Shown: in pieces, positions 3,306 to 43,988 of the stretch
Position numbering within the stretch: the first letter of the stretch is position 1
How the letters are laid out: every line of letters starts with the position of its first letter
Assembly (NCBI GenBank): GCA_023666615.1
Contig: JAMPBQ010000002.1
Span: 26,885 to 90,884 of the forward strand
Reading direction: 5' to 3'
DNA length: 64,000 bases
Origin: Clostridium sp.
GTDB taxonomy: Bacteria; Bacteroidota; Bacteroidia; Bacteroidales; Muribaculaceae
Translations under genes and position numbers: made by a program
Notes under the pieces: generated by a model
What the model saw: only the letters and a program-made list of their open reading frames with translations
Database searches by the model: none
Told to the model about the DNA's origin: nothing

Positions 3306-5777
3306 ATGAATATATCATATAGCTGGCTGAAACAGTATATCGACTTTGACCTCACGCCGGAGGAGTTGGCGGCAGCCCTCACTTCAATCGGGCTTGAGAC
3401 CGGAGGCATAGAAAAAGTTGAATCAATCCGCGGCGGCCTGCGCGGCATCGTAATAGGCAAGGTGCTCACTTGCGAAGAGCATCCCGACAGCGACCACCTT
3501 CACATCACCACCGTCGACCTTGGCGACGGCAAAGCCACTCAAATCGTGTGCGGCGCCCCAAACGTCGCCGCAGGGCAGACAGTAGTTGTCGCCACCGTGG
3601 GCACCACCCTATACGACGGCGACAAGGAATTTCAGATTAAGAAATCAAAGATACGCGGCGTAGAATCATTCGGCATGATATGCGCTGAAGATGAAATAGG
3701 AGTGGGCGCATCCCACGATGGCATCATCGTTCTCCCCGACGGCTGCGCGCCCACAGGCACCCCCGCCACTGAGTACTACGGCCTCACCGACGACTATGTG
3801 CTAGAAGTGGACCTGACGCCTAACCGCATTGACGCCGCCTCCCACTATGGAGTGGCGCGCGACCTGGCCGCATGGCTCGCTTGCCACGCCAACGCCGCAG
3901 AGCTTAAGAAGCCATCTGTAGAGGCGTTCAAGGTTGACGCCCCAGGCCTGCAAGGCGTAAGCGTAGAGGTTGACGACAAGCAAGGGTGCCCACGCTATTG
4001 CGGCCTCACCATCGAAGGCGTCACCGTGGCCGAAAGTCCGCAGTGGCTTAAGGATAGGCTCAACGCCATCGGCCTGCACCCAATCAACAACATCGTTGAC
4101 ATCACCAACTATATCCTGCATGGCTTTGGCCAGCCAATGCACTGCTTTGACGCAGCAAAGATAAAGGGCGGAAAAATCGTGGTGCGCACATGCCCCACCG
4201 GCACGAAATTCACCACGCTTGACGGAGCCGAGCGCGAGCTCAACGAGGCCGACCTCATGATTTGCAACGCCGAGGAGCCGATGTGCATTGCAGGCGTATT
4301 CGGCGGCCTGGAGTCAGGCGTCACCGAGGAGGCCACTTCAGTGTTCCTGGAGAGCGCGTATTTCAATCCCACCCGAGTGCGCAAGACCGCACGACGCCAT
4401 GGCCTTAGCACTGACGCATCATTCCGCTACGAGCGCGGCACCGACCCCAACTGCTGCATGTACATCCTCAAGCTTGCAGCCTTGCTGGTGCAGGAATTGG
4501 CCGGCGGAAAAATAGTAGGCCAAATTTACGACGTTAAGGATGGCGAATTTCCCCCGTTCGAAGTTGAGCTTTCCTACAGCCAGCTCAACGGCCTTATCGG
4601 CAAGGATATACCGGCTGAGACCGTCGACTCTATAATCAAATCGCTAGAGATTGAGATTGCCAACCGCAAGGATGGCGTCCTCAGCCTGAAGGTGCCCACC
4701 TACCGCGTGGACGTGCAGCGCCCATGCGACGTGATTGAAGACGTGCTCCGCATCTACGGCTACAACAATGTTGAGATGCCGCAAGCCGTGCATTCGTCGC
4801 TGTCGTTCAAGACCCCAACCGACGAGGCCGAGGACCTGCGCCGCACAATTGCCAACCAGCTTGCGGCCGAGGGATTCAATGAAATCCTCAATAATTCCCT
4901 CACTGCGGAGAAATACTACCAAAATCTGCAAAGTTACCCCGCAGACCGCTGCGTGCGTCTGCTCAACCCGCTGAGCCAGGACCTGAACGTGATGCGGCAG
5001 ACCCTACTGTTCGGCGGCCTGGAGACCATTGAGCACAACTCCAACCGCAAGATGCCCGACCTTATGCTATATGAGTTCGGAAACACATACTATTGCGATT
5101 CCGCGGCAGAATCTACCGCCGAAAAGCCCCTTGCCCCCTACTCCGAATCATCGCGCCTGGGAATTTGGCTAACGGGAAATGTCCGCAACGGCAACTGGGC
5201 CCGCCCCACCGAAGAGGCTTCTATCTACGACCTTAAAGCCGTAGTCGCCAACATTATGGCTCGCCTGGGCATAAATCCAAAGGAGATTGCGCTGAAGAAC
5301 GGCGACAGCGACCTTTTCGACGCCTCAATCGATATAGCCACACGCTCGGGCAAGCATCTTGGCGTGATGGGCATTGTGCGCAAGAGCGTCGCTAAGCTTT
5401 GCGACCTCAAGCAGACCGTATATTTCGCCGAACTTGACTGGAACGCCCTTACCCGCTTGGCTATGGGCAAGAAGGTGACTTTCGCCCCCCTGCCAAAGAC
5501 GATGCCCGTGAAGCGCGACCTCGCGCTTCTGATTGACTCGTCAGTCACGATGGAGCAAATCGAGGCTGCCGTGCGCCAGGCTGAAAAGAAAATCCTGCGT
5601 TCGGTAAGCCTCTTCGACGTGTACGAAGGGAAGAACCTCCCCGAAGGCAAAAAGTCGTACGCAATCGCCATCACTCTCCAAGATCCGGAAAAGACCCTCA
5701 ACGACAAATACATCGACCAAGTGATGTCAAAAATAATCTCCAGTCTGCAAAAGCAAGTAGGAGCGGAATTAAGATAA
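3306..5777 (+). CDS. pheT: Phenylalanyl-tRNA synthetase beta subunit
   Basis: 823 residues, the usual length for bacterial PheT, starting MNISYSWLKQY. PheT pairs with PheS (alpha2beta2) to charge tRNA-Phe; the beta chain holds tRNA-binding and editing domains. Seen: the EMAP/OB-fold tRNA-binding domain at ~42-150 (VIGKVLTCEEHPDSDHL), the B3/B4 editing region at ~210-390 (GLHPINNIVDITNYI, ASFRYERGTDPN), B5 at ~410-480, the catalytic-like core to ~690, and the FDX-ACB anticodon-binding domain at the C-terminus (MPVKRDLALLID, SYAIAITLQDPEKTLND). pheS is not adjacent, which is normal in Bacteroidetes. It has its own promoter at 3236-3269. Confidence 0.97.
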   Translation: MNISYSWLKQYIDFDLTPEELAAALTSIGLETGGIEKVESIRGGLRGIVIGKVLTCEEHPDSDHLHITTVDLGDGKATQIVCGAPNVAAGQTVVVATVGTTLYDGDKEFQIKKSKIRGVESFGMICAEDEIGVGASHDGIIVLPDGCAPTGTPATEYYGLTDDYVLEVDLTPNRIDAASHYGVARDLAAWLACHANAAELKKPSVEAFKVDAPGLQGVSVEVDDKQGCPRYCGLTIEGVTVAESPQWLKDRLNAIGLHPINNIVDITNYILHGFGQPMHCFDAAKIKGGKIVVRTCPTGTKFTTLDGAERELNEADLMICNAEEPMCIAGVFGGLESGVTEEATSVFLESAYFNPTRVRKTARRHGLSTDASFRYERGTDPNCCMYILKLAALLVQELAGGKIVGQIYDVKDGEFPPFEVELSYSQLNGLIGKDIPAETVDSIIKSLEIEIANRKDGVLSLKVPTYRVDVQRPCDVIEDVLRIYGYNNVEMPQAVHSSLSFKTPTDEAEDLRRTIANQLAAEGFNEILNNSLTAEKYYQNLQSYPADRCVRLLNPLSQDLNVMRQTLLFGGLETIEHNSNRKMPDLMLYEFGNTYYCDSAAESTAEKPLAPYSESSRLGIWLTGNVRNGNWARPTEEASIYDLKAVVANIMARLGINPKEIALKNGDSDLFDASIDIATRSGKHLGVMGIVRKSVAKLCDLKQTVYFAELDWNALTRLAMGKKVTFAPLPKTMPVKRDLALLIDSSVTMEQIEAAVRQAEKKILRSVSLFDVYEGKNLPEGKKSYAIAITLQDPEKTLNDKYIDQVMSKIISSLQKQVGAELR

Positions 5778-5821
5778 GGGCCAGAGCTCTTGGACGCCGC
5801 CAGACCCTAACAAAAAAAGCC

Positions 5822-5856
5822 AAAACTAAAAACTAAAAACTAAAAACTAAAAACTA
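5822..5856 (+). repeat. (AAAAACT)n microrepeat between pheT and yebC
   Basis: About five near-perfect copies of a 7-nt unit AAAAACT end 7 nt before the yebC start codon. A-rich leaders favour initiation in Bacteroidetes, which mostly lack Shine-Dalgarno sites, so a translational role is possible; copy number could vary by slippage. Confidence 0.85.
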
Positions 5857-5863
5857 TCATACA

Positions 5864-6595
5864 ATGGGAAGAGCTTTTGAATACCGCAAAGCCAGAAAAC
5901 TAAAGCGCTGGGGCAACATGTCCCGCACATTCACTCGCATTGGAAAGGAAATAACCATCGCCGCCAAGGCCGGCGGTCCCGACCCTGAATGCAACCCTCG
6001 CCTGCGCGCCCTAATGCAGAACGCCAAGGCCGCAAACATGCCCAAGGACACCGTAGAGCGCGCCATCAAAAAGGCAACTGACAAGGACGCTAGCGACTAT
6101 AAGGAAATCACTTACGAAGGATACGGCCCCCATGGCGTGGCTATCTTTGTTGAGGCCGCTACCGACAACAACACACGCACCGTGGCAAACGTGCGCTCTT
6201 ATTTCACCAAGCACGGCGGCAGCCTCGGCACCCAGGGTTCGCTCACATTCCTTTTCGATCACAAGAGCGTATTTAAAATCAAGCCCAAGGATGGCGTTGA
6301 CATGGAAGAGCTCGAGCTTGAGCTCATCGACTATGGCGTTGACGAGCTTGAGCAGGACGAGGAGGAAATCGTGCTCTATGGCGCCTTCGAGCAATTCGCC
6401 GCTATTCAGAAATATCTTGAGGACAACGGCTATGAAATAATCAGCGCCGAATTTGAGCGCATCCCCAACGACCTGAAGGACGTAGCCCCCGAGGATCGCG
6501 ACGGCATCAACAAGCTCCTTGAGAAGCTTGAGGATGATGAGGACGTGCAGAATGTGTTCCATAACATGCGCGAACTTGACGAAGACGAAGAATAA
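5864..6595 (+). CDS. yebC: YebC/TACO1 family protein
   Basis: 243 residues, typical family length (235-250). The N-terminus MGRAFEYRKARKLKRWGNM, the internal AKAANMPKDTVERAIKKA block and the ITYEGYGPHGVAIFVEA block are YebC hallmarks; the acidic tail DEDEE is common. The family was long annotated as DNA-binding regulators (PmpR type); more recent work on relatives points to ribosome-associated roles relieving stalling, and the sequence alone does not say which applies. It follows pheT by 86 nt and ends in a 12-bp hairpin. Bacterial YebC is cytoplasmic. Confidence 0.93.
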   Translation: MGRAFEYRKARKLKRWGNMSRTFTRIGKEITIAAKAGGPDPECNPRLRALMQNAKAANMPKDTVERAIKKATDKDASDYKEITYEGYGPHGVAIFVEAATDNNTRTVANVRSYFTKHGGSLGTQGSLTFLFDHKSVFKIKPKDGVDMEELELELIDYGVDELEQDEEEIVLYGAFEQFAAIQKYLEDNGYEIISAEFERIPNDLKDVAPEDRDGINKLLEKLEDDEDVQNVFHNMRELDEDEE

Positions 6596-6606
6596 TATTC
6601 CAACCA

Positions 6607-6634
6607 GCCCTATTCGGCGCATGCCGAATAGGGC
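6607..6634 (+). terminator. Hairpin after yebC
   Basis: GCCCTATTCGGC / GCCGAATAGGGC with a GCAT centre, a perfect 12-bp stem starting 11 nt after the yebC stop. No T-run follows, so it may pause polymerase or protect the 3' end and not terminate cleanly. Confidence 0.5.
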
Positions 6635-6705
6635 GTTATAAAACCATCCTCTCAATCTAGCGTTAAAGTCATCCTCTCAAACGCTCAATAAAGCCATCCG
6701 CGCAA

Positions 6706-8223
6706 ATGCTTAAATCAATAAGGACCATAATCGCGATAATCAGCCTCGCCGCAGTCACCCTACTTTTCCTCGACTTCACCGGCACGGCACAAAAGCTGTG
6801 GCCTTGGATGGCTAAAATCCAATTCATGCCGGCGTTGCTTTCACTCAATGCCGCAGCATTGCTGGCGCTTTTGCTCGGCACGCTCATGCTGGGCCGGGTC
6901 TATTGCTCAGTGATTTGCCCATTGGGAATTCTTCAGGACACTGTAAATTGGTTAAGGGGGCGTGTAGGCAACAAGAGGAAAAGGAAAAATAGGTTCCGCT
7001 ACGTCCCCGCCAAGACTAAAACCCGCCTTGCGGTGCTTGGTGTTTTCACGGTGCTGGTAATTATCGGCCTCACAAACGTACTGGCGGCATCAATAGCCGG
7101 CCTTATTGAGCCATATTCCGCCTACGGCAGAATCGCCTCGCAGATGTTTGCCCCGGCATATGACTGGATCAACAATCTTTTGGCCTCATGGTCGGAAAGC
7201 CAAATCGACAATTACGCATTCTATCGAGTGGCTATTTCAGTGAGCGCGCCTCTGCTGGCCGTGGCGATCATCACTTTTATCGCCGTCGCAACCATGTCAT
7301 GGCGCGGCGGACGAGACTATTGCAACACAATCTGCCCCGTAGGCACGATTTTGGGCTATCTGTCAAAGTATTCGCTGCTCAAGCCGGTGATTAACACAGA
7401 AAAGTGCATCAACTGCGGCAAGTGCATGCGCAACTGCAAGGCGCAGTGCATCAACTCAAAGGCGCATGACATAGACTATTCGCGGTGCGTGGCGTGCATG
7501 GACTGCATATCCGTCTGCCAAGAGGGCGCTATAAGCTACACAGCAAGAAGGACGAGGCCGCAGGCCGTCGCCGCACCCATTACGGCTGACAGATCTCGCC
7601 GCGGTTTCATAATTGCGGGCGCCCTCCTTTCCGGCACCGCCCTCAGCGCTAAAATAACCGATGGCGGACTCACCGCCCTGAAGGACAAAAAGCCCGCGCA
7701 ACGCGCCACAAGGATTGCCCCTCCCGGAGCCAAAAGCCTTTCGCATCTTAGCGGAAAATGCACCGCATGCCAGCTGTGCATCCAAGCATGCCCCAACAAT
7801 GTGCTCAAGCCTACGCTCAGCATTGAAGGGTTTATGCAGCCTCATCTCGATTTCACCGATGGCTACTGCACGCCTGAATGCACTGTGTGCTCATCAGTTT
7901 GCCCCGTAGGCGCCATATTGCCAATCGATGAAGCTGAAAAGAGCTCAACGAAAATCGGCACCGCCGTGGTCGACCCGCAAATTTGCATTTCCGCCACCGA
8001 AGGCGTGCAATGCGGCTCGTGCGCCAAGCATTGCCCAGCTGCGGCGATAACCATGGTGGAGGTAAACGCTGACAGCGAATTGCTGCGTCCAGCCGTGGAT
8101 GAAGAGGCCTGCATCGGATGCGGCAGCTGTGAGTTCCATTGCCCGGCGGGCACGGTCGACGGCATGGCGTCCGAGGCCTCGGCCATACACGTTGAAGGCA
8201 TTCTCCGGCATAGAGAAATATAA
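6706..8223 (+). CDS. Membrane-bound 4Fe-4S polyferredoxin (NapH/NosR-like)
   Basis: 505 residues. Four transmembrane segments (~7-24, ~48-66, ~103-128, ~175-196) carry CxxxCP motifs at membrane edges (YCSVICPLG, YCNTICPVG), as in NapH/NosR/CcoG-like membrane ferredoxins. A first dicluster domain follows (CINCGKCMRNC, CVACMDCISVC), then a twin-arginine-like hydrophobic segment (RRGFIIAGALL), then a second ferredoxin region with at least four cysteine groups (CTACQLCIQACP, CTVCSSVCP, CGSCAKHCP, CIGCGSCEFHCP). It should pass electrons across or along the inner membrane. No partner oxidoreductase is adjacent, so donor and acceptor are unknown. The start at 6706 is the first ATG before TM1. Proteins of this layout are known in Bacteroides as uncharacterised 4Fe-4S proteins. 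Confidence 0.85.
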   Translation: MLKSIRTIIAIISLAAVTLLFLDFTGTAQKLWPWMAKIQFMPALLSLNAAALLALLLGTLMLGRVYCSVICPLGILQDTVNWLRGRVGNKRKRKNRFRYVPAKTKTRLAVLGVFTVLVIIGLTNVLAASIAGLIEPYSAYGRIASQMFAPAYDWINNLLASWSESQIDNYAFYRVAISVSAPLLAVAIITFIAVATMSWRGGRDYCNTICPVGTILGYLSKYSLLKPVINTEKCINCGKCMRNCKAQCINSKAHDIDYSRCVACMDCISVCQEGAISYTARRTRPQAVAAPITADRSRRGFIIAGALLSGTALSAKITDGGLTALKDKKPAQRATRIAPPGAKSLSHLSGKCTACQLCIQACPNNVLKPTLSIEGFMQPHLDFTDGYCTPECTVCSSVCPVGAILPIDEAEKSSTKIGTAVVDPQICISATEGVQCGSCAKHCPAAAITMVEVNADSELLRPAVDEEACIGCGSCEFHCPAGTVDGMASEASAIHVEGILRHREI

Positions 8224-38821: not shown

Positions 38822-38938
38822 ATACGTGAAAATCCAACAACTTATGTTAAATCAACTAGTTGACTAGTCACATAATTTTAATTTTTTATAACTTTTCAAC
38901 GGATACGCAACGACTATTCAGTCATACAAAAAATTGAA

Positions 38939-38965
38939 TTGTAGGGACGCACCCTGGTGCGTCCG
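38939..38965 (+). repeat. GTAG-headed REP-like palindrome, identical to 61317-61343
   Basis: TTGTAG then GGACGCACC-CT-GGTGCGTCC. The same 27 bp occur at 61317-61343, and both are preceded by an ACTATTCAG word at about 30 nt. Confidence 0.85.
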
Positions 38966-39041
38966 GGACCATAAATGCGCAAATTTGACGTGAATCGTAC
39001 CCCCTGTCGCAATTTATTGTCAAATAATGAAAATGATTTGA

Positions 39042-39139
39042 CACCGCGAAGCGGTGATTCCATTGTTAACCGCGGGTAGATCGCTTCGCAATCTACCCGC
39101 GGCAGATATCCCCCCAACGTCAGCACGGCGAAGCCGTGC
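39042..39139 (+). repeat. Two-hairpin repeat module (locus 4)
   Basis: CACCGC-GAA-GCGGTG (39042-39056), spacer ATTCCATTGTTAAC, 12-bp hairpin CCGCGGGTAGAT/ATCTACCCGCGG (39070-39102), then GCACGGC-GAA-GCCGTGC (39123-39139). With the REPs at 38751 and 38939 it fills most of the 630-bp gene-free stretch left of the CXXX island; the remainder is AT-rich and holds nothing I recognise. Confidence 0.87.
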
Positions 39140-39265
39140 CTCTAACCACATCTGTTACAGAGGTAAGACTCCACCGTACTTTATTTGATTATCGGTTCTC
39201 CAAAGAAACACCCCGCAGCGGCGCTTGCATTGACTGAATCACCTCCAAATGCAAGTGTAATGTCA

Positions 39266-39541
39266 TTATTTTGTTACAAGCAAAATTTCATTTGACTGGA
39301 AGTTTATCTCCCAGTTGCCATTTTCTACACCTTCCCATTGGTACTTAGTGGACATATCATCCCACCATTTCTGAAATTTTGTTGTGGTCTCTCCGAGGTC
39401 TTTCACAAGTCGTTCGTAAAGGTCGAAATTCTCAGGAGAAAGGATTTTTGCCAACTCATTAATTCCGTTGCGACGCTCAAAGAGTGTCTGAATTTCATTC
39501 TTTTCTTCTTCGGTCACTTGACCAACTACTTTCTTGTTCAT
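39266..39541 (-). CDS. CXXX-repeat peptide modification system accessory protein
   Basis: 91 residues, charged and helical (TEEEKNEIQTLFERRNGINELAKIL), with a Trp-rich C-terminal half (KWWDDMSTKYQWEGVENGNWEINF). Size, position and sequence fit the small accessory protein of Bacteroidetes CXXX-repeat peptide systems; a precursor-recognition or scaffold role is inferred from analogy with other RiPP accessory proteins. It has no PqqD-like motif that I can see. The start overlaps the maturase stop by ATGA, so it is the last coupled gene of the operon. Confidence 0.75.
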   Translation of the reverse strand: MNKKVVGQVTEEEKNEIQTLFERRNGINELAKILSPENFDLYERLVKDLGETTTKFQKWWDDMSTKYQWEGVENGNWEINFQSNEILLVTK

Positions 39542-40470
39542 ATCTTGCCTATAATTTTCTCAAAAGGGTCGTTATAATCTAATTCAGGGATTTGAACATT
39601 GGCCACAAATGCGCCATACTCACGAATTCTATCAAGGAGTTTTCCTGCTATTTTTCTCTCAATATGCGCCATAAGACATTGCTGATGGCTTGGCGTATTT
39701 ATTTCTAACGTCAGTTTTTTATTTAACCATACGCATCGCTTGCAATTGTAGGCATCACATATACGACAAATTGGAGCATAGGCCAACTGCAGCAAATGGA
39801 CATTGTCAATATGCAGCCCGTCAGTAGGATTCCCAACGCTGTCTGCATTATCGCAGTAAAATGCCGGACAAAGATAGAAGTTCCCATCCGGGGATAATGC
39901 AATAGAATCTATCCCCGCATTACAATTATTCATATCGGACAACATCATTCTATCCGTGATAAGATTCAATTGTACATTGTTTCCATTACGATACAATTCA
40001 AAAATGGTATCACTGAGGCTTTGCAGTGCTTTTTCATATTCTTGGACATCCTCGTCTTTGAACGAATGAACATCCGTAAAAATGATGTTTATACGACTAA
40101 ATCTGTATATATTTTCTTTTATCAGATTGTATTGGACAATGAAATCTTTATAAGAGGCCGTCAAAACCACTGGCGCTGGATAAGTTTTTTCTGACTTATT
40201 AAATAAACCCCAATTTTGCAATACAATCACGTCTCCGTCAGAGCCTTTCTCCGATGTGATTTTAATATGAGGATAATCATTAAGGAGTTTCACATATTGC
40301 TCCGGCAAAGCGTACTCAGGATAGATAATATGTATGGTGATGTTTCTCTTTATAGCCCATAGGAGTCCATCTTCAAGAGCAGATAAAGATATTAGATGCG
40401 GGGTATTTCTCGTTCTATAATGACAATAGGAAACAACGCTATCGCACAACTGAATTATAAGATATTTCAT
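39538..40470 (-). CDS. CXXX-repeat peptide maturase (SPASM-like protein lacking the radical SAM triad)
   Basis: 310 residues. The C-terminal half has a SPASM-like cysteine set: C183, C201 and C206 (CNAGIDSIALSPDGNFYLC), C235, C238, C243, C246 and C265. The N-terminal half has only C9 and C16, so the CxxxCxxC motif that binds the radical-generating cluster is absent. By family it is the CXXX-repeat peptide maturase, always seen with a true radical SAM partner. It may bind auxiliary clusters and hold the precursor or act as a degenerate partner subunit. Overlaps both neighbours by ATGA, which implies a complex. Confidence 0.8.
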   Translation of the reverse strand: MKYLIIQLCDSVVSYCHYRTRNTPHLISLSALEDGLLWAIKRNITIHIIYPEYALPEQYVKLLNDYPHIKITSEKGSDGDVIVLQNWGLFNKSEKTYPAPVVLTASYKDFIVQYNLIKENIYRFSRINIIFTDVHSFKDEDVQEYEKALQSLSDTIFELYRNGNNVQLNLITDRMMLSDMNNCNAGIDSIALSPDGNFYLCPAFYCDNADSVGNPTDGLHIDNVHLLQLAYAPICRICDAYNCKRCVWLNKKLTLEINTPSHQQCLMAHIERKIAGKLLDRIREYGAFVANVQIPELDYNDPFEKIIGKI

Positions 40471-41654
40471 AATGAGTCCTCCTCTTCAAGTTTCTCTTTT
40501 GCTAACGCTTGTTTTATCTTAAACCAATAATAGTTATTGGCTCTTACCCTCGCCTTGTGCATTTTACAGATTGCAGTTGACCGTTGGAAAATAGTGGCAG
40601 TTTCGGCTGCATCATAGTTCTCTCCTTGACACCACGCGCATCCTAATGCAACATCACATTCTAAACATTTTTTAGATGATTGGGTGGTACGATCAAGAGA
40701 TAGAAATGGACGAAGTTTGTTCTTGTCAATTCCCTCGTTGACATTGCCAATGATTATTGGTTTCTTTGTTCGCAATGAGTATGCGGCAAATCTTGTACAG
40801 GGATAAAAATTCCCGGAGGCGTCAATTGCTAACATCTTCCCCGCCCCACACCAATTGTGATTGTCTGTTTCAGCATCTAACGGTTTGCCAATCAATTCAG
40901 AGAAAAAAGAACAGACATAGTCTTTATAATATTGTTTTGCGATTATTTCGTCAGCTAAACCTATAAGCTGTTGTTCAAATAGCCCGTCATCATTTTTTTT
41001 CCACACATCTTCAAATACCACATTGATATTTACTTCCTTGATTCCAAGAGAATATAGGTGCAAAACGCTTTCTTTGACATAGGGTATATCAGCCGAACTG
41101 ATTGTCACTTTGGTAGCGCCTTCGGGAAATTGGTTTAGCCATAATGGAATATTTTTAACAACATCTTCATAACTTCCACGTTCATCAGCCCCCTTCCAAA
41201 TACGATTGAGGTCATGTTTCCGTTTTGTGCCATCAATGGTAATACCTATCGAAAGATGCTCTCTATTCTTTGAGATGAATTTTTGGACCTTATCGGAATC
41301 ATAGTTGATGCCATTCGTAGAGAATGAGAACCTATACGAGTTGAACCAGTGATGATTAAGTCGGTACATCTCTGACTTAAGATAATCACAGATTTTATCA
41401 ATCAACTCTATCTCAAGAAATGGCTCGCCTCCGATAAAATCCCAGACTACTGATTTTTCGGGGAAATCACTTTCATGAGAAAGGATATAGTCAATTGCTG
41501 CCTTAGCAATTGACCAATCCATACGTTCTTTTTCATTTTTACCAACAAGATAGCAATACTTACAGGCTAATTGACAGTCCTTTGTTACTATAAACGTAAT
41601 GTTTTTAGCAATGCCAGATTCCCATGCGGGGATTTGCTCCTTATAGTCTGACAT
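40467..41654 (-). CDS. Radical SAM-SPASM peptide maturase, CXXX-repeat target type
   Basis: 395 residues. The radical SAM triad is C27, C31 and C34 (CQLACKYCY); the SAM-binding GGEP motif is present (FIGGEPFLE, ~75). The SPASM region has C269, C286, C330, C333, C339, C342 and C363 (WCGAGKMLAIDASGNFYPC, CLECDVALGCAWC), enough for two auxiliary [4Fe-4S] clusters. Such enzymes make Cys-to-carbon thioether or related crosslinks in ribosomally made peptides; the product of this subfamily is not known to me. It begins 9 nt after the Cys-rich precursor gene and overlaps the maturase by ATGA. AT-rich codons mark it as part of an acquired island. Confidence 0.9.
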   Translation of the reverse strand: MSDYKEQIPAWESGIAKNITFIVTKDCQLACKYCYLVGKNEKERMDWSIAKAAIDYILSHESDFPEKSVVWDFIGGEPFLEIELIDKICDYLKSEMYRLNHHWFNSYRFSFSTNGINYDSDKVQKFISKNREHLSIGITIDGTKRKHDLNRIWKGADERGSYEDVVKNIPLWLNQFPEGATKVTISSADIPYVKESVLHLYSLGIKEVNINVVFEDVWKKNDDGLFEQQLIGLADEIIAKQYYKDYVCSFFSELIGKPLDAETDNHNWCGAGKMLAIDASGNFYPCTRFAAYSLRTKKPIIIGNVNEGIDKNKLRPFLSLDRTTQSSKKCLECDVALGCAWCQGENYDAAETATIFQRSTAICKMHKARVRANNYYWFKIKQALAKEKLEEEDSL

Positions 41655-41663
41655 AAAGAATCT

Positions 41664-42179
41664 TTATAGATTTTGTGAACTGTTTTTACATGAATATTGA
41701 CAATATTGTTTGCAGCTGCCAAGACATGATGTATCACAACCGCCCAAACATGACTTTTCACATGTTCCTTGACATGAAGCAGAACATCCTTTACAGCTTG
41801 TTGCACAAGAGCCTGTACACATAGACGCGCAATTTCCACAACCCGATGAAGTTGCTGAATCTTGGCAATTACCACTACAATTTGAAGCACAACTGTCGCA
41901 TACGCTTGACTGTGCTGAATTTTCACAGCCAGTGCTACATGCTGAAGAGCAGCCTGAACTACATGCCGATGCTCCACATCCGTTTTTTGATGACCCGACA
42001 CAACTTTCGCTGCAAGTGCTGCCGCATCCTAAACGAGCAGAACCCGTGCAGCTGTTACCACATCCATTGGGATTACTGGGCTCATCTCCACCACATGATG
42101 ACAAAATCGTAGGAGCCAAAACAATACCCCCGAGTATCGGCAAAAGATGCTTGATAAATTCTCGTCGCGATATATTCAT
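41664..42179 (-). CDS. CXXX-repeat Cys-rich precursor peptide with Tat and lipoprotein signals
   Basis: 171 residues from ATG 42179; that ATG shares one base with the stop of the preceding gene (TAATG). The N-terminus has a twin-arginine consensus SRREFIK, a hydrophobic core and a lipobox LSSC. The mature part has 28 further Cys, mostly every fourth residue (C-GST-C-SES-C; C-SSG-C-SSA-C-STG-C; C-QGT-C-EKS-C-LGG-C-DTS-C), separated by Gly/Ser/Asn-rich linkers. It is the likely substrate of the two downstream enzymes. A Tat signal would suit export after folding or metal/crosslink formation in the cytoplasm, and the lipobox would anchor it. Which residues are modified is unknown. Confidence 0.88.
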   Translation of the reverse strand: MNISRREFIKHLLPILGGIVLAPTILSSCGGDEPSNPNGCGNSCTGSARLGCGSTCSESCVGSSKNGCGASACSSGCSSACSTGCENSAQSSVCDSCASNCSGNCQDSATSSGCGNCASMCTGSCATSCKGCSASCQGTCEKSCLGGCDTSCLGSCKQYCQYSCKNSSQNL

Positions 42180-43702
42180 TAATATGTAATGTTTGATATC
42201 CAAATATATTTAATTCCACTCTCAATGTTAAGGAATTCAATATTAAAATTCAATTTTGCCGGAATTGCATAATCGTTTGTATTCTCATGCATGGTATAGA
42301 AGGTTTGTTCACCTCCTGATATATATAATGTAGATTCTTTTTTGTATCCTTCCTCCTTGGAATATGTCTTGGTTAGTCCAATCAAATCCCCCATTTTCAA
42401 GTCTACTGGTTTTATATAGGCATAGGAAACCTGGTATGTACCTTGAGGTAAAACACTTGTGATTTTTGCAATATATGGACTATTATAGCTCATTACAGAG
42501 CTCCTACCGACTTTCTTGGCAACAATATTAACATCTGAAGTACCGATAGTAGTAGCAGCACCCTCATTATTATAGTACCTCACTTTGCCATCATTAAGAG
42601 TAAAAGCCCTAAGATAATACGTCGTGGATTTATCAAGAGGTTTTAATGTTATCCTGTAGTTATCATCTTCTTTAGCCACAGTCGCCATGTTATCAGTTAT
42701 TTCAGGGTGAGGCGCTATGCCATAGCAGACATTCAGAACATCTACGCCTGAAATTCTGGGGGTTGTAAATTCTAATTGATTAAGATAATAGGCCTTTATT
42801 TTAAAGTCAGTAATGATAATGCCTTGTGTACTAAACTCCACAGTAGCACTATAATAGATGTCAGATTTATCCTTTGCAAATGCACGGAGGAAATATCGTG
42901 TATTAGGTTTCAAACTTTTCAATGCGCCATTTATTTCAGTTTTCGTGACATCAAGTTTAATGACTGTAGATTCGGTTGTTGGTGTTTTTTCAATGTCATA
43001 GCATAGCCCAAGTTCGGATATAGTAGTTCCTCGAGCAAAAACATTTAACGACACTTTTACAGAGGTGTCATCTATGACTTCTGTTTTTATATCTGAAAAT
43101 TCAACCGTTTTATTGCCAATTGTTATTTTACATTGAGCCACCTTATTGTTTGAAGTAGTCGCAGAAATTACAGCCGTGCCCTCATTTATTCCTTTAACAG
43201 TACCATCATCTTCCACCGTAGCAACTTCGTGATTGGAAGAACGCCATGTTATCGACTTCGCATTAGATGTTTCCGGCAAAACAGTAGCTTCCAATTTAAC
43301 CGAACCACCAATTAACAAATATTCTTCGGTTTTATTTAACTTTACGCTCGTTGGATATATAATCTTTTCCACAACACTCACCTTACATGTGGCTATGCGG
43401 TTATTTGCAAGAGCTACAGCCGCAATTGTAGTTTCACCAGGAGATACGGCTGTAACAAGTCCGGTCTCATCAACTTTAGCAACACTTTGATTGCTACTTC
43501 TCCATTCGTGAGCGGTGTTTTCAGCATCCGCCGGAGTAAAAGATGCGGTTAATCTTTGTGTTTTCCCTACCTCAAGCGTAATGTCACTTTTGTCCAATGC
43601 AATTTGCAAATTGCTCTGGATATCAGGTTCGTCCGAGCCACTGCAAGAACTGAATAATAGAATCAACACGGCAAAGAAGCTTGATACTTTGACCAAATTC
43701 AT
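42179..43702 (-). CDS. Lipoprotein with Ig-like (Big2) and FN3-like domains heading the CXXX operon
   Basis: 507 residues with signal peptide and lipobox (LILLFSSC). Two bacterial Ig-like domains at ~32-112 and ~115-197 (ITLEVGKTQRLTASF, SITWRSSNHEVATVEDDGTV), two FN3-like repeats with matching LKPNTRYFLRAFAKD and LDKSTTYYLRAFTLND turns (~205-295, ~297-390), and a C-terminal beta domain. Probably exposed on the surface. It is the first gene of the CXXX operon and overlaps the precursor by one base, so it likely works with the modified peptide, perhaps as a carrier or partner at the outer membrane (inference). Confidence 0.85.
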   Translation of the reverse strand: MNLVKVSSFFAVLILLFSSCSGSDEPDIQSNLQIALDKSDITLEVGKTQRLTASFTPADAENTAHEWRSSNQSVAKVDETGLVTAVSPGETTIAAVALANNRIATCKVSVVEKIIYPTSVKLNKTEEYLLIGGSVKLEATVLPETSNAKSITWRSSNHEVATVEDDGTVKGINEGTAVISATTSNNKVAQCKITIGNKTVEFSDIKTEVIDDTSVKVSLNVFARGTTISELGLCYDIEKTPTTESTVIKLDVTKTEINGALKSLKPNTRYFLRAFAKDKSDIYYSATVEFSTQGIIITDFKIKAYYLNQLEFTTPRISGVDVLNVCYGIAPHPEITDNMATVAKEDDNYRITLKPLDKSTTYYLRAFTLNDGKVRYYNNEGAATTIGTSDVNIVAKKVGRSSVMSYNSPYIAKITSVLPQGTYQVSYAYIKPVDLKMGDLIGLTKTYSKEEGYKKESTLYISGGEQTFYTMHENTNDYAIPAKLNFNIEFLNIESGIKYIWISNITY

Positions 43703-43760
43703 AAATATATGGTTGCCGCGGTCATCCTCTCGTTGGCATTTGATTGGTTTATACGGAAAA

Positions 43761-43988
43761 AGCGTAGGAATCTGTATCTGTTGCCGTCCTACAACCTGAG
43801 GCTTCTCGCATTGCCCATCTTATGTTGGACGGCAACACGCAGAAGCCCTACGCTGTATATGCGACATCACATTCGGCCACGCCTCTCCCGAGGCAAAGGC
43901 CAAACGCCGGGTATCACATATCCACGGACATCTACCGTTGCTCTATCCTTGACATAAGATTGAAATTTTGCGAGAATTTCAGGTTGTC
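43761..43988 (-). other. Candidate structured leader RNA of the CXXX operon, with a pseudoknot
   Basis: Nested and crossing inverted repeats: AGCGTAGG (43761-43768)/CCTACGCT (43847-43854); GTTGCCGTCC (43780-43789)/GGACGGCAAC (43827-43836); GGCTTCT (43800-43806)/AGAAGCC (43841-43847), the last crossing the second. A further stem GCCTC-TCCC-GAGGC is at 43881-43894 and GAAATT/AATTTC at 43962-43980 inside GACA/TGTC. It lies between a minus-strand promoter (44084-44115) and the operon start (43702). No protein is encoded convincingly. With the two promoters it fills the 479-bp gap to the esterase gene. Confidence 0.55.

Follow-up and report, generated by a model that had tools for sequence, protein, structure and literature searches.

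A CXXX-repeat radical SAM gene island with a Tat-type cysteine-ladder precursor: a candidate system for crosslinking before export

The CXXX-repeat family is already defined in silico, reportedly founded by a paper of Haft and Basu in 2011. We know of no described product of such a system. Among the papers listed by a literature search, judged by titles and abstracts and with most subscription journals outside its coverage, none concerns it. Among the closest described systems, the radical SAM enzyme PapB uses CX3D spacing for its thioether crosslinks and likely has three iron-sulfur clusters, according to the passages cited (PMC9413430). Intermolecular electron transfer, likely via a second auxiliary cluster, is also described for PapB in part of another report (PMC10470005). 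In the passages cited for QhpC, the protein is thioether-crosslinked in the cytoplasm and exported afterwards (PMC7876137).

We analysed a stretch of 64,000 nucleotides, here called the window. An earlier note on this DNA had described five minus-strand genes at 43702-39266. They are real: 39266-43702 holds five intact minus-strand frames with overlapping or near-abutting ends. The note's "four of five junctions" was miscounted, since five genes have four junctions, namely three overlaps of 1, 4 and 4 bases and one gap of 9 bases. The single-base overlap joins the lipoprotein gene to the precursor gene. The features are as follows.

38900..43900 (limits approximate), no strand: low-G+C island enclosing the five genes, 39.7% G+C against 53.8% in the remaining window
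42179..43702, minus strand: Ig-like lipoprotein of 507 aa with two Big_2 stretches (Pfam Big_2, 114 bits)
41664..42179, minus strand: CXXX-ladder precursor, 171 aa, 29 Cys (ORF)
42150..42170, minus strand: Tat twin-arginine motif SRREFIK, precursor residues 4-10 (from sequence)
42093..42104, minus strand: lipobox LSSC, precursor residues 26-29, followed by GGDE; predicted lipidation site (from sequence)
41688..42062, minus strand: cysteine ladder C40-C164, 28 Cys, each with C, A or S at +4
40467..41654, minus strand: radical SAM/SPASM maturase, 395 aa (NCBIfam TIGR04115, 618.4 bits, cut-off 350)
41553..41576, minus strand: CX3CX2C AdoMet cluster motif (C27, C31, C34), invariant
40566..40850, minus strand: seven SPASM-type cysteines, C269-C363, invariant
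39538..40470, minus strand: SPASM-only partner, 310 aa (NCBIfam TIGR04119, 232.9 bits, cut-off 150), degenerate AdoMet motif
39266..39541, minus strand: accessory protein, 91 aa (NCBIfam TIGR04116, 96.4 bits, cut-off 50)

The low G+C of the island, which the earlier note does not mention, is also seen at third codon positions, where GC3 is 28-42% in the five genes and 73% in the two neighbours measured. The island was probably acquired by the host. Across the genus, 2 of 49 genomes have a match over the cut-off, the window's own genome included, and a fragment is present in G293. A comparison with empty sites was abandoned because the flanking esterase was matched in just 6 of 48 genus genomes, again counting its own.

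The family assignment that the earlier note had proposed to check by HMM holds for three of the proteins, as enzyme, partner and accessory protein score far above the curated cut-offs. It does not extend to the precursor, which reaches 14.5 of the 50 bits needed for TIGR04117 and is unmatched by TIGR04114 and TIGR04118. The TIGR04117 cut-off was passed by four of the eight related precursors submitted (L056, L081, L012 and L002). TIGR04115 also found matches in 10 of 14 control genomes, none of them over the cut-off. The order enzyme, partner, accessory protein recurs in related loci, but the five-gene unit of the earlier note is not supported as it stood, since the Ig-like lipoprotein seldom adjoins. 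Among 80 loci a clear homologue adjoins the cluster only at L014 (39% identity, E 8e-86), and L039, L050 and L058 have weak matches (23-27% identity, E about 1e-5). Upstream, 48 proteins were scanned, the window's included, after 5 of 52 ORFs had been left out; the families differ, and the 47 of other loci fall into several families or into none. The lipoprotein was therefore rejected as a core part; it is an exported neighbour specific to this locus and stands outside the conserved system.

In the enzyme, C27, C31 and C34 are accompanied by nine further cysteines and not by seven as noted earlier: the seven SPASM-type residues plus C89 and C248. All twelve are invariant in an alignment of 28 of the 81 enzymes, from which near-duplicates and some others were left out. 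In a comparison of 11 enzymes that spans Bacteroidales, Bacillota and a phage contig, the ten catalytic-type cysteines are likewise invariant. After TIGR04115 the next-best family is PapB (194.6 bits, E 2.5e-57, under the PapB cut-off of 340), and the SCIFF maturase is fourth. Pfam detected no RRE or PqqD-like recognition domain at E<=1 in any of the five proteins, and the accessory protein, lacking Pfam or PDB support for this role, was rejected as an RRE.

The partner keeps little of the AdoMet motif. Only C16 of the motif is invariant in the family, while the window copy also has C9. Together with C16, the seven SPASM-type cysteines are invariant across 74 partner sequences (of 78 rows; near-duplicates and some others were left out, and the L074 partner was dropped for low coverage). 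The accessory protein has a mean column identity of 75% over 73 sequences, drawn in the same way from 76 rows, with the L011 protein dropped for low coverage. Homology of partner and enzyme over the full length was rejected, the profile comparison being limited to partner columns 128-271 at a probability of 78%. The window partner aligned with the L113 enzyme over partner residues 4-225 (E 2e-11), and the best pair in the main set gave E 6e-9 over partner residues 70-309. From these alignments the partner likely descends from a radical SAM enzyme, its N-terminal half being less settled. Fusions of enzyme with partner occur in two lineages (L089 and L118), and a fusion of partner with accessory protein in a third (L111 and L112). 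They suggest that enzyme, partner and 91-aa protein form one complex, with a predicted ratio of 1:1:1.

Tat signals consist of an S/T-R-R-x-F-L-K motif, a hydrophobic region and a cleavage site. The window precursor has features of this kind in SRREFIK and LSSC, both of them absent from the earlier note. Around 81 loci, 130 of 137 ladder ORFs carry a Tat-type motif. The leader pattern across precursors is RRxFFKKAAK...LP. The motif was absent from the candidate precursors of L089, L113-L115, L118 and L121; those of L113 and L114 have five cysteines. By pattern, 30 of the 130 Tat-type precursors are of lipobox type, three of them doubtful.

The total of 29 cysteines noted earlier is correct for the precursor; the ladder itself has 28, since C29 is the lipobox cysteine. 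In the window, 19 of 27 ladder steps are of exactly four residues, which is beyond chance: over 20,000 shuffles such steps numbered 2.8 on average and never more than 11. The residue at +4 of the 28 ladder cysteines is C in 19 cases, A in 6 and S in 3. A second precursor was not found in the same genome when the window precursor was used as query at E<=1; it matched only itself, and unlike ladder proteins could escape this search. In 23 precursor pairs, 95.7% of Cys and 57.7% of other core residues are conserved, a difference that leans on a scoring that rewards Cys matches; near-identical pairs were not pooled, and the window-L014 pair stands outside this set.

Two spurious high-Cys ORFs of L025 were removed before the counts of ladder composition, ladder steps, ladder ends and cysteines per precursor. 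At +4 of the last cysteine, 60 of 125 precursors have Ser, against a permutation mean of 28.2 and a maximum of 45. Outside the 81-locus set, S, A, N or T stands there in 13 of 15 scorable ladders. For this, 16 ladder ORFs, one too short to score, were kept of 21 rows; the five removed were an enzyme gene, ORFs antisense to an enzyme gene and long unrelated ORFs, and L116 and L085 are near-copies of main-set loci. L111 (Tyr) and L084 (Leu) are exceptions. Several observations argue against an acceptor at +4. When all loci are pooled, the residue found at +4 in CX2C steps hardly differs from the ordinary X1 composition, and in five-residue steps it is Gly in 9 of 33. Within the ladder, the +4 residue is Cys itself, an acceptor that the PapB passages cited do not mention (PMC9413430). 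Gly also hardly ever stands at +1 of the last cysteine (1 of 125), which makes +1 a rival acceptor position. The regular crosslinks along the CXXX ladder that the earlier note proposed are plausible, now as candidate i to i+4 links.

Tat genes are often linked to the relatives. Among the 67 loci with room to test, TatA lies downstream in 55, TatC in 53 and both in 53; 12 are without linked Tat genes, as is the window. One linked TatC and one TatA were confirmed by Pfam and NCBIfam. In a tree built without L011 and ORFs under 200 aa, a single clade (support 100/100) gathers 54 of 60 cluster-linked TatCs and includes none of the 12 other TatCs; the remaining six fall outside, and long branches are flagged by the tree program. 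At three outlying loci an ABC exporter takes the place of the Tat genes. Three pattern-seeded scans of viral contigs found no relatives.

We propose, at slightly better than even chances for the explanation as a whole, that the island is a cassette, spread horizontally, for maturing and exporting a cysteine-ladder protein, which would receive PapB-like i to i+4 thioether crosslinks in the cytoplasm and then leave by Tat as an anchored lipoprotein. The gene identities, the conserved Tat-type leader, the Tat linkage in relatives, the fusions and the ladder register are observed; we infer the complex, the thioether chemistry, the acceptor position, the partner's role, Tat dependence, the final location and the function. 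The leader, a Tat-type signal, would probably also be the recognition sequence that brings the precursor to the three-protein complex. The enzyme would bond the Cys(i) thiol to a carbon in the side chain of residue i+4 and progress along the ladder, and the Ser or Ala at the rung past the end of each run would accept the final link. With seven SPASM-type cysteines and no working AdoMet motif, the partner would most likely shuttle electrons between crosslinks, or else hold thiols. Since the stiffened product would be unable to thread Sec, we propose that it exits by Tat, is cleaved by a signal peptidase and stays in the envelope on its lipid anchor, where it would act as a rigid rod or a display module.

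Several other readings have to be weighed. We hold it improbable that the ladder serves to bind a metal or a cluster, receives only a minor modification from the enzymes and is sent through Tat because it takes up its metal in the cytoplasm. In favour, the export of cofactor-loaded proteins is the classical role of Tat, the precursors have 7 to 74 cysteines (median 15) and the ladder residues are mostly small. However, the ladders come with a radical SAM enzyme and a SPASM partner, Gly, Ser and Thr prevail at the X positions, where neither His nor an acidic pattern recurs (132 distinct precursors after merging), and no metal-handling family was recognised among the 48 upstream proteins. About equally improbable is another radical reaction on the ladder residues. 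The radical SAM/SPASM superfamily spans epimerisation, alpha-carbon thioethers and C-C crosslinks, and no single acceptor residue is conserved within the units; yet the cysteine spacing is their strongest regularity, and the family ranks of PapB and the SCIFF maturase, with CteB as nearest solved structure, speak against this reading.

A diffusible antibacterial RiPP, that is a bacteriocin, would fit the variable cores under a conserved leader, the several precursors at 32 of 81 loci, the sporadic distribution of the system and an Anaerococcus locus where a 56-aa precursor adjoins an ABC transporter as well as a lanthipeptide cluster. We regard this product as unlikely, since the Tat/lipoprotein export route leads us to expect an anchored protein and not a small diffusible peptide. 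The lipobox predicts anchoring in the window and in some 27-30 of 130 precursors, ladder ORFs reach 434 aa and some contain non-ladder domains (for example L045), and no protease was recognised among the gene families present in at least four loci, although part of these are unannotated and an outer-membrane-like family recurs at 11 loci. Least probable of all, in our estimate, is that the copy in the window is in decay, an orphan without Tat genes of its own that has lost its function. It sits on an acquired low-G+C island with few counterparts in the genus, the window has no TatAC, and the one TatC of the genome lies elsewhere. Against decay, the five frames, the catalytic cysteines and the precursor register are intact, and all but one of the 12 other Tat-free loci also keep a Tat-type leader; the exception, L010, starts near the locus end with no leader in view.

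A bolder form of the crosslinking proposal seems improbable to us when all its parts are taken jointly. Each Cys thiol would be joined to the beta carbon of the i+4 Cys, giving a second sulfur-carbon backbone (-CH-S-CH-S-, a dithioacetal run) parallel to the peptide and capped by Ser or Ala; the three-protein radical SAM complex would build it in the cytoplasm, and it would cross the membrane already folded, most relatives using a Tat translocase of their own, to form rods anchored at the surface. If this were true, a phage-borne version would place a ladder protein among phage tail genes. A RiPP-type precursor led by a Tat signal, and in relatives encoded beside TatA and TatC of their own, would connect radical SAM crosslinking directly with folded-protein export. 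It would also account for the passage of a heavily crosslinked polypeptide, with its tens of cysteines, across the inner membrane. A family known as sequence models is thereby turned into sharp tests: a mass loss of about 2 Da per Cys, the +4 acceptor, Tat dependence, and whether the SPASM-only partner may shuttle electrons when turnover is repeated.

Compared with the known systems, the window shares with the NCBIfam CXXX-repeat set (TIGR04114-TIGR04119) its maturase, partner and accessory protein; it differs in the precursor, and the model names seen mention neither a Tat leader nor TatAC. What the sequence comparison appears to add is the Tat-type leader with lipobox, the linked TatA and TatC, the gene fusions and the +4 ladder register. 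CteB, a SCIFF maturase, is the nearest solved structure to the enzyme (5wgg, E 1e-25); the match begins at position 12 of the window-family profile but at CteB residue 92, so the N-terminal part of CteB has no counterpart here. In DAG-RiPPs, RiPP-lipoprotein hybrids, a modified precursor also carries a lipoprotein signal, but the part of that report cited describes MNIO enzymes (PMC12636315), whereas here a radical SAM enzyme stands beside a Tat-type lipoprotein signal, with the modification putative and the lipobox assigned by pattern. QhpD/QhpC of quinohemoprotein amine dehydrogenase resembles our proposal in the thioether crosslinking of a protein subunit by a radical SAM enzyme before export (PMC7876137); it differs in its three Cys-Asp/Glu links, ABC exporter and dedicated protease, with no ladder and no Tat. 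PapB/PapA is the next-best family and shares the four-residue register, CX3D there and CX3-C/S/A in the window, and the three clusters that PapB likely has according to the passages cited (PMC9413430) equal the number predicted by the cysteine pattern of the window enzyme. It differs in that the window enzyme scores 195 of the 340 bits required, that +4 is Cys, Ser or Ala and not Asp or Glu, and that the system here has no RRE by Pfam, a separate SPASM-only partner and up to 74 cysteines in a precursor.

The CXXX-repeat family is known already from models, and the genes of the window island were assigned as follows.

43702-39266, minus strand: five ORFs, all intact
Gene upstream of the precursor, minus strand: lipoprotein with Big_2
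Radical SAM maturase, minus strand: TIGR04115, 618 bits against a cut-off of 350 (NCBIfam)
SPASM-only CXXX maturase (the partner), minus strand: TIGR04119, 233 bits against a cut-off of 150 (NCBIfam)
Accessory protein, minus strand: TIGR04116, 96 bits against a cut-off of 50 (NCBIfam)

At their four junctions the five genes overlap three times, by 1, 4 and 4 bases, and are separated once, by 9 bases. When the window precursor was compared with the NCBIfam target models, none reached its cut-off (TIGR04117, 14.5 against 50 bits). We know of no product of the family.

The G+C content of the island is 39.7%, whereas that of the remaining window is 53.8%, and the GC3 of the five genes is 28-42% compared to 73% in the two adjacent genes measured. 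Of 65 loci, 39 have a core whose G+C content is lower than that of the flanks by over 3 points, and in 10 it is higher. The island was probably acquired by its host, and its distribution is sporadic. TIGR04115 was found above the cut-off in 2 of 49 genomes of the host's genus, the host counted, with a fragment in one further genome. Searching the order sample with TIGR04115 gave 7 of 247 genomes and searching the phylum sample with TIGR04119 gave 6 of 395. Among 14 control genomes, 10 had TIGR04115 matches and none had a match above the cut-off; such sub-cut-off matches are general radical SAM enzymes and were left out of the counts. A locus titled Pseudoflavonifractor (L031, Bacillota) encodes an accessory protein 90% identical to that of the window, reflecting either a recent transfer or a misnamed record. 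The full precursor-enzyme-partner-accessory-TatA-TatC cluster was seen in a 6.8-kb record filed as human-faecal phage (L120, MT837480.1), which is probably a bacterial fragment.

The window precursor of 171 residues starts with MNISRREFIKHLLPILGGIVLAPTILSSC, comprising a twin-arginine motif, a hydrophobic stretch and a lipobox, and 28 ladder cysteines follow. An enzyme-seeded scan yielded 169 relatives. The 80 best were retained, which skews the locus sample to close relatives (72-80% identity). ORFs with four or more CX3C steps numbered 137 in these 80 loci and the window, and came from 79 of the 81 loci; two of the ORFs, both in L025, were spurious. The RRx-hydrophobic motif was present in 130 of the 137. 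When 126 leaders were aligned on this motif, which makes the RR trivial and the +3 and +4 positions hydrophobic by requirement, Phe was found at +3 and at +4 in 98% each, Lys at +5 in 95% and Pro at +13 in 94%. A permissive LP-type pattern was found in 124 of 127 leaders. Since K-T-L-P-G is likewise present in the short, non-Tat precursors of L113-L115, this leader segment may be the handle of the maturase. By pattern, 30 of the 130 motif-bearing precursors are of the lipobox type, three of them doubtful, and 91 of the 100 others have an AxA-like site. Acidic residues behind the lipobox cysteine favour surface display in Bacteroidetes. The ladders at L045:517-1821 and L029:8742-9461 sit next to a non-ladder domain, which in L029 matches Lcl_C weakly (18.8 against 34.9 bits); a ladder can therefore form one module within a larger protein that is exported.

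The Tat pathway transports folded proteins. Linkage to Tat genes was scored in 67 loci where the accessory gene was present with at least 1,500 bases beyond it. Downstream of this gene, TatA was found in 55 loci, TatC in 53, both in 53 and neither in 12, with the start of TatA mostly within about 110 bases. Pfam and NCBIfam confirmed the assignment for one TatC and for one TatA. TatC in general is widespread, with 209 of 247 genomes encoding it. In a TatC tree of 72 rows, for which the program warned of long branches, 54 of the 60 cluster-linked copies formed one clade with a support of 100/100; the 12 other TatCs, including that of the host genome, lay outside this main clade, and six cluster copies were placed elsewhere too. 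A search of the window found no Tat genes, and the host genome (94.6% complete) has one TatC on a different contig, with TatA adjoining. An ABC exporter was found in three outlying loci, with no Tat genes and no accessory gene within the 10-15 kb read.

In the window ladder, 19 of 27 steps are exactly four residues (20,000 shuffles: mean 2.8, maximum 11), and the nine cysteines that lack a cysteine four residues later (+4) are in every case followed at that position by Ala (6) or Ser (3). Across 132 distinct precursors, Cys occupied +4 of 2,231 of the 2,702 scored cysteines. At the protein end the +4 residue was Ser in 60 of 125 cases (5,000 permutations: mean 28.2, maximum 45), one of S/A/N/T in 101 and Gly in 7; in a less redundant set of 104 ends, Ser was found in 45 (permutation mean 22.6, maximum 37). 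Within the ladders, Ser or Ala was at +4 in 23 of 30 gaps of 8 and 22 of 31 gaps of 9. Among 33 steps of 5 residues, 18 had Ser or Ala at this position and 9 had Gly, and at CX2C steps over all loci the rule did not hold distinctly. Outside the 81 loci, 15 of 16 ladder ORFs were scorable, some being near-copies of loci within the set, and gave S 8, A 3, T 1, N 1, Y 1 and L 1. Gly is scarce at +1 too (1 of 125 ends), and Pro occurs in 10 of 2,227 ladder units. Judged from these sequences, the pattern fits an i to i+4 crosslink that would close on a small side chain. It equally fits a repeat fold, with Ser or Ala standing in for Cys in the last rung.

CX3CX2C and seven SPASM-type cysteines are conserved in 11 of 11 maturases from Bacteroidales, Bacillota and a phage contig. 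The next-best family of the window maturase is PapB (195 bits, under the cut-off of 340), and the closest solved structure is CteB. The partner has seven SPASM-type cysteines in all 74 sequences, where of CX3CX2C the third cysteine (C16) alone is invariant; the window copy has the first as well. Enzyme and partner are fused in L089 and on an Anaerococcus prevotii plasmid, and partner and accessory in L111 and L112. From these fusions we infer that maturase, partner and accessory protein form one complex. The plasmid, which is conjugative (L118, NC_013164.1, 1-9920), encodes the fusion of 728 residues, a candidate precursor of 56 residues with four cysteines spaced 4 residues apart, an accessory-like ORF of 41 residues and an ABC transporter, followed by a class III lanthipeptide cluster. 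L011 has an additional radical SAM gene (5587-6750), which shares 48% identity with that of the window and lies immediately 5' of the main maturase.

A faecal bacteriophage contig (L122, MT835573.1, 14229-17029) carries a TIGR04115-like radical SAM gene (300.6 against a cut-off of 350 bits) and encodes a 193-residue protein whose C-terminal part is a CXXX ladder (TIGR04114, 21.3 against 20 bits). The region also contains an endolysin and tape-measure, tail and tail-fibre matches. In this one record, the ladder protein is possibly a radical-SAM-modified phage tail protein. Salmonella and Erwinia phage records of about 200-250 kb contain radical SAM proteins that share about 25% identity with the enzyme of this tail locus.

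The Tat linkage, the fusions and the +4 rule were not found in the available portions of the literature searched, whose coverage leaves out most subscription journals. PapB is reported to join Cys to Asp or Glu in CX3D motifs with -2 Da apiece (PMC9413430), and intermolecular electron transfer was proposed to be needed in every cycle, likely via the second auxiliary cluster (PMC10470005). If tens of links were made per substrate, a dedicated iron-sulfur shuttle would be advantageous, and the partner is a candidate for such a shuttle of the maturase. Cytoplasmic crosslinking with export afterwards has a precedent in QhpC (PMC7876137), and modified lipoproteins have one in the DAG-RiPPs (PMC12636315).
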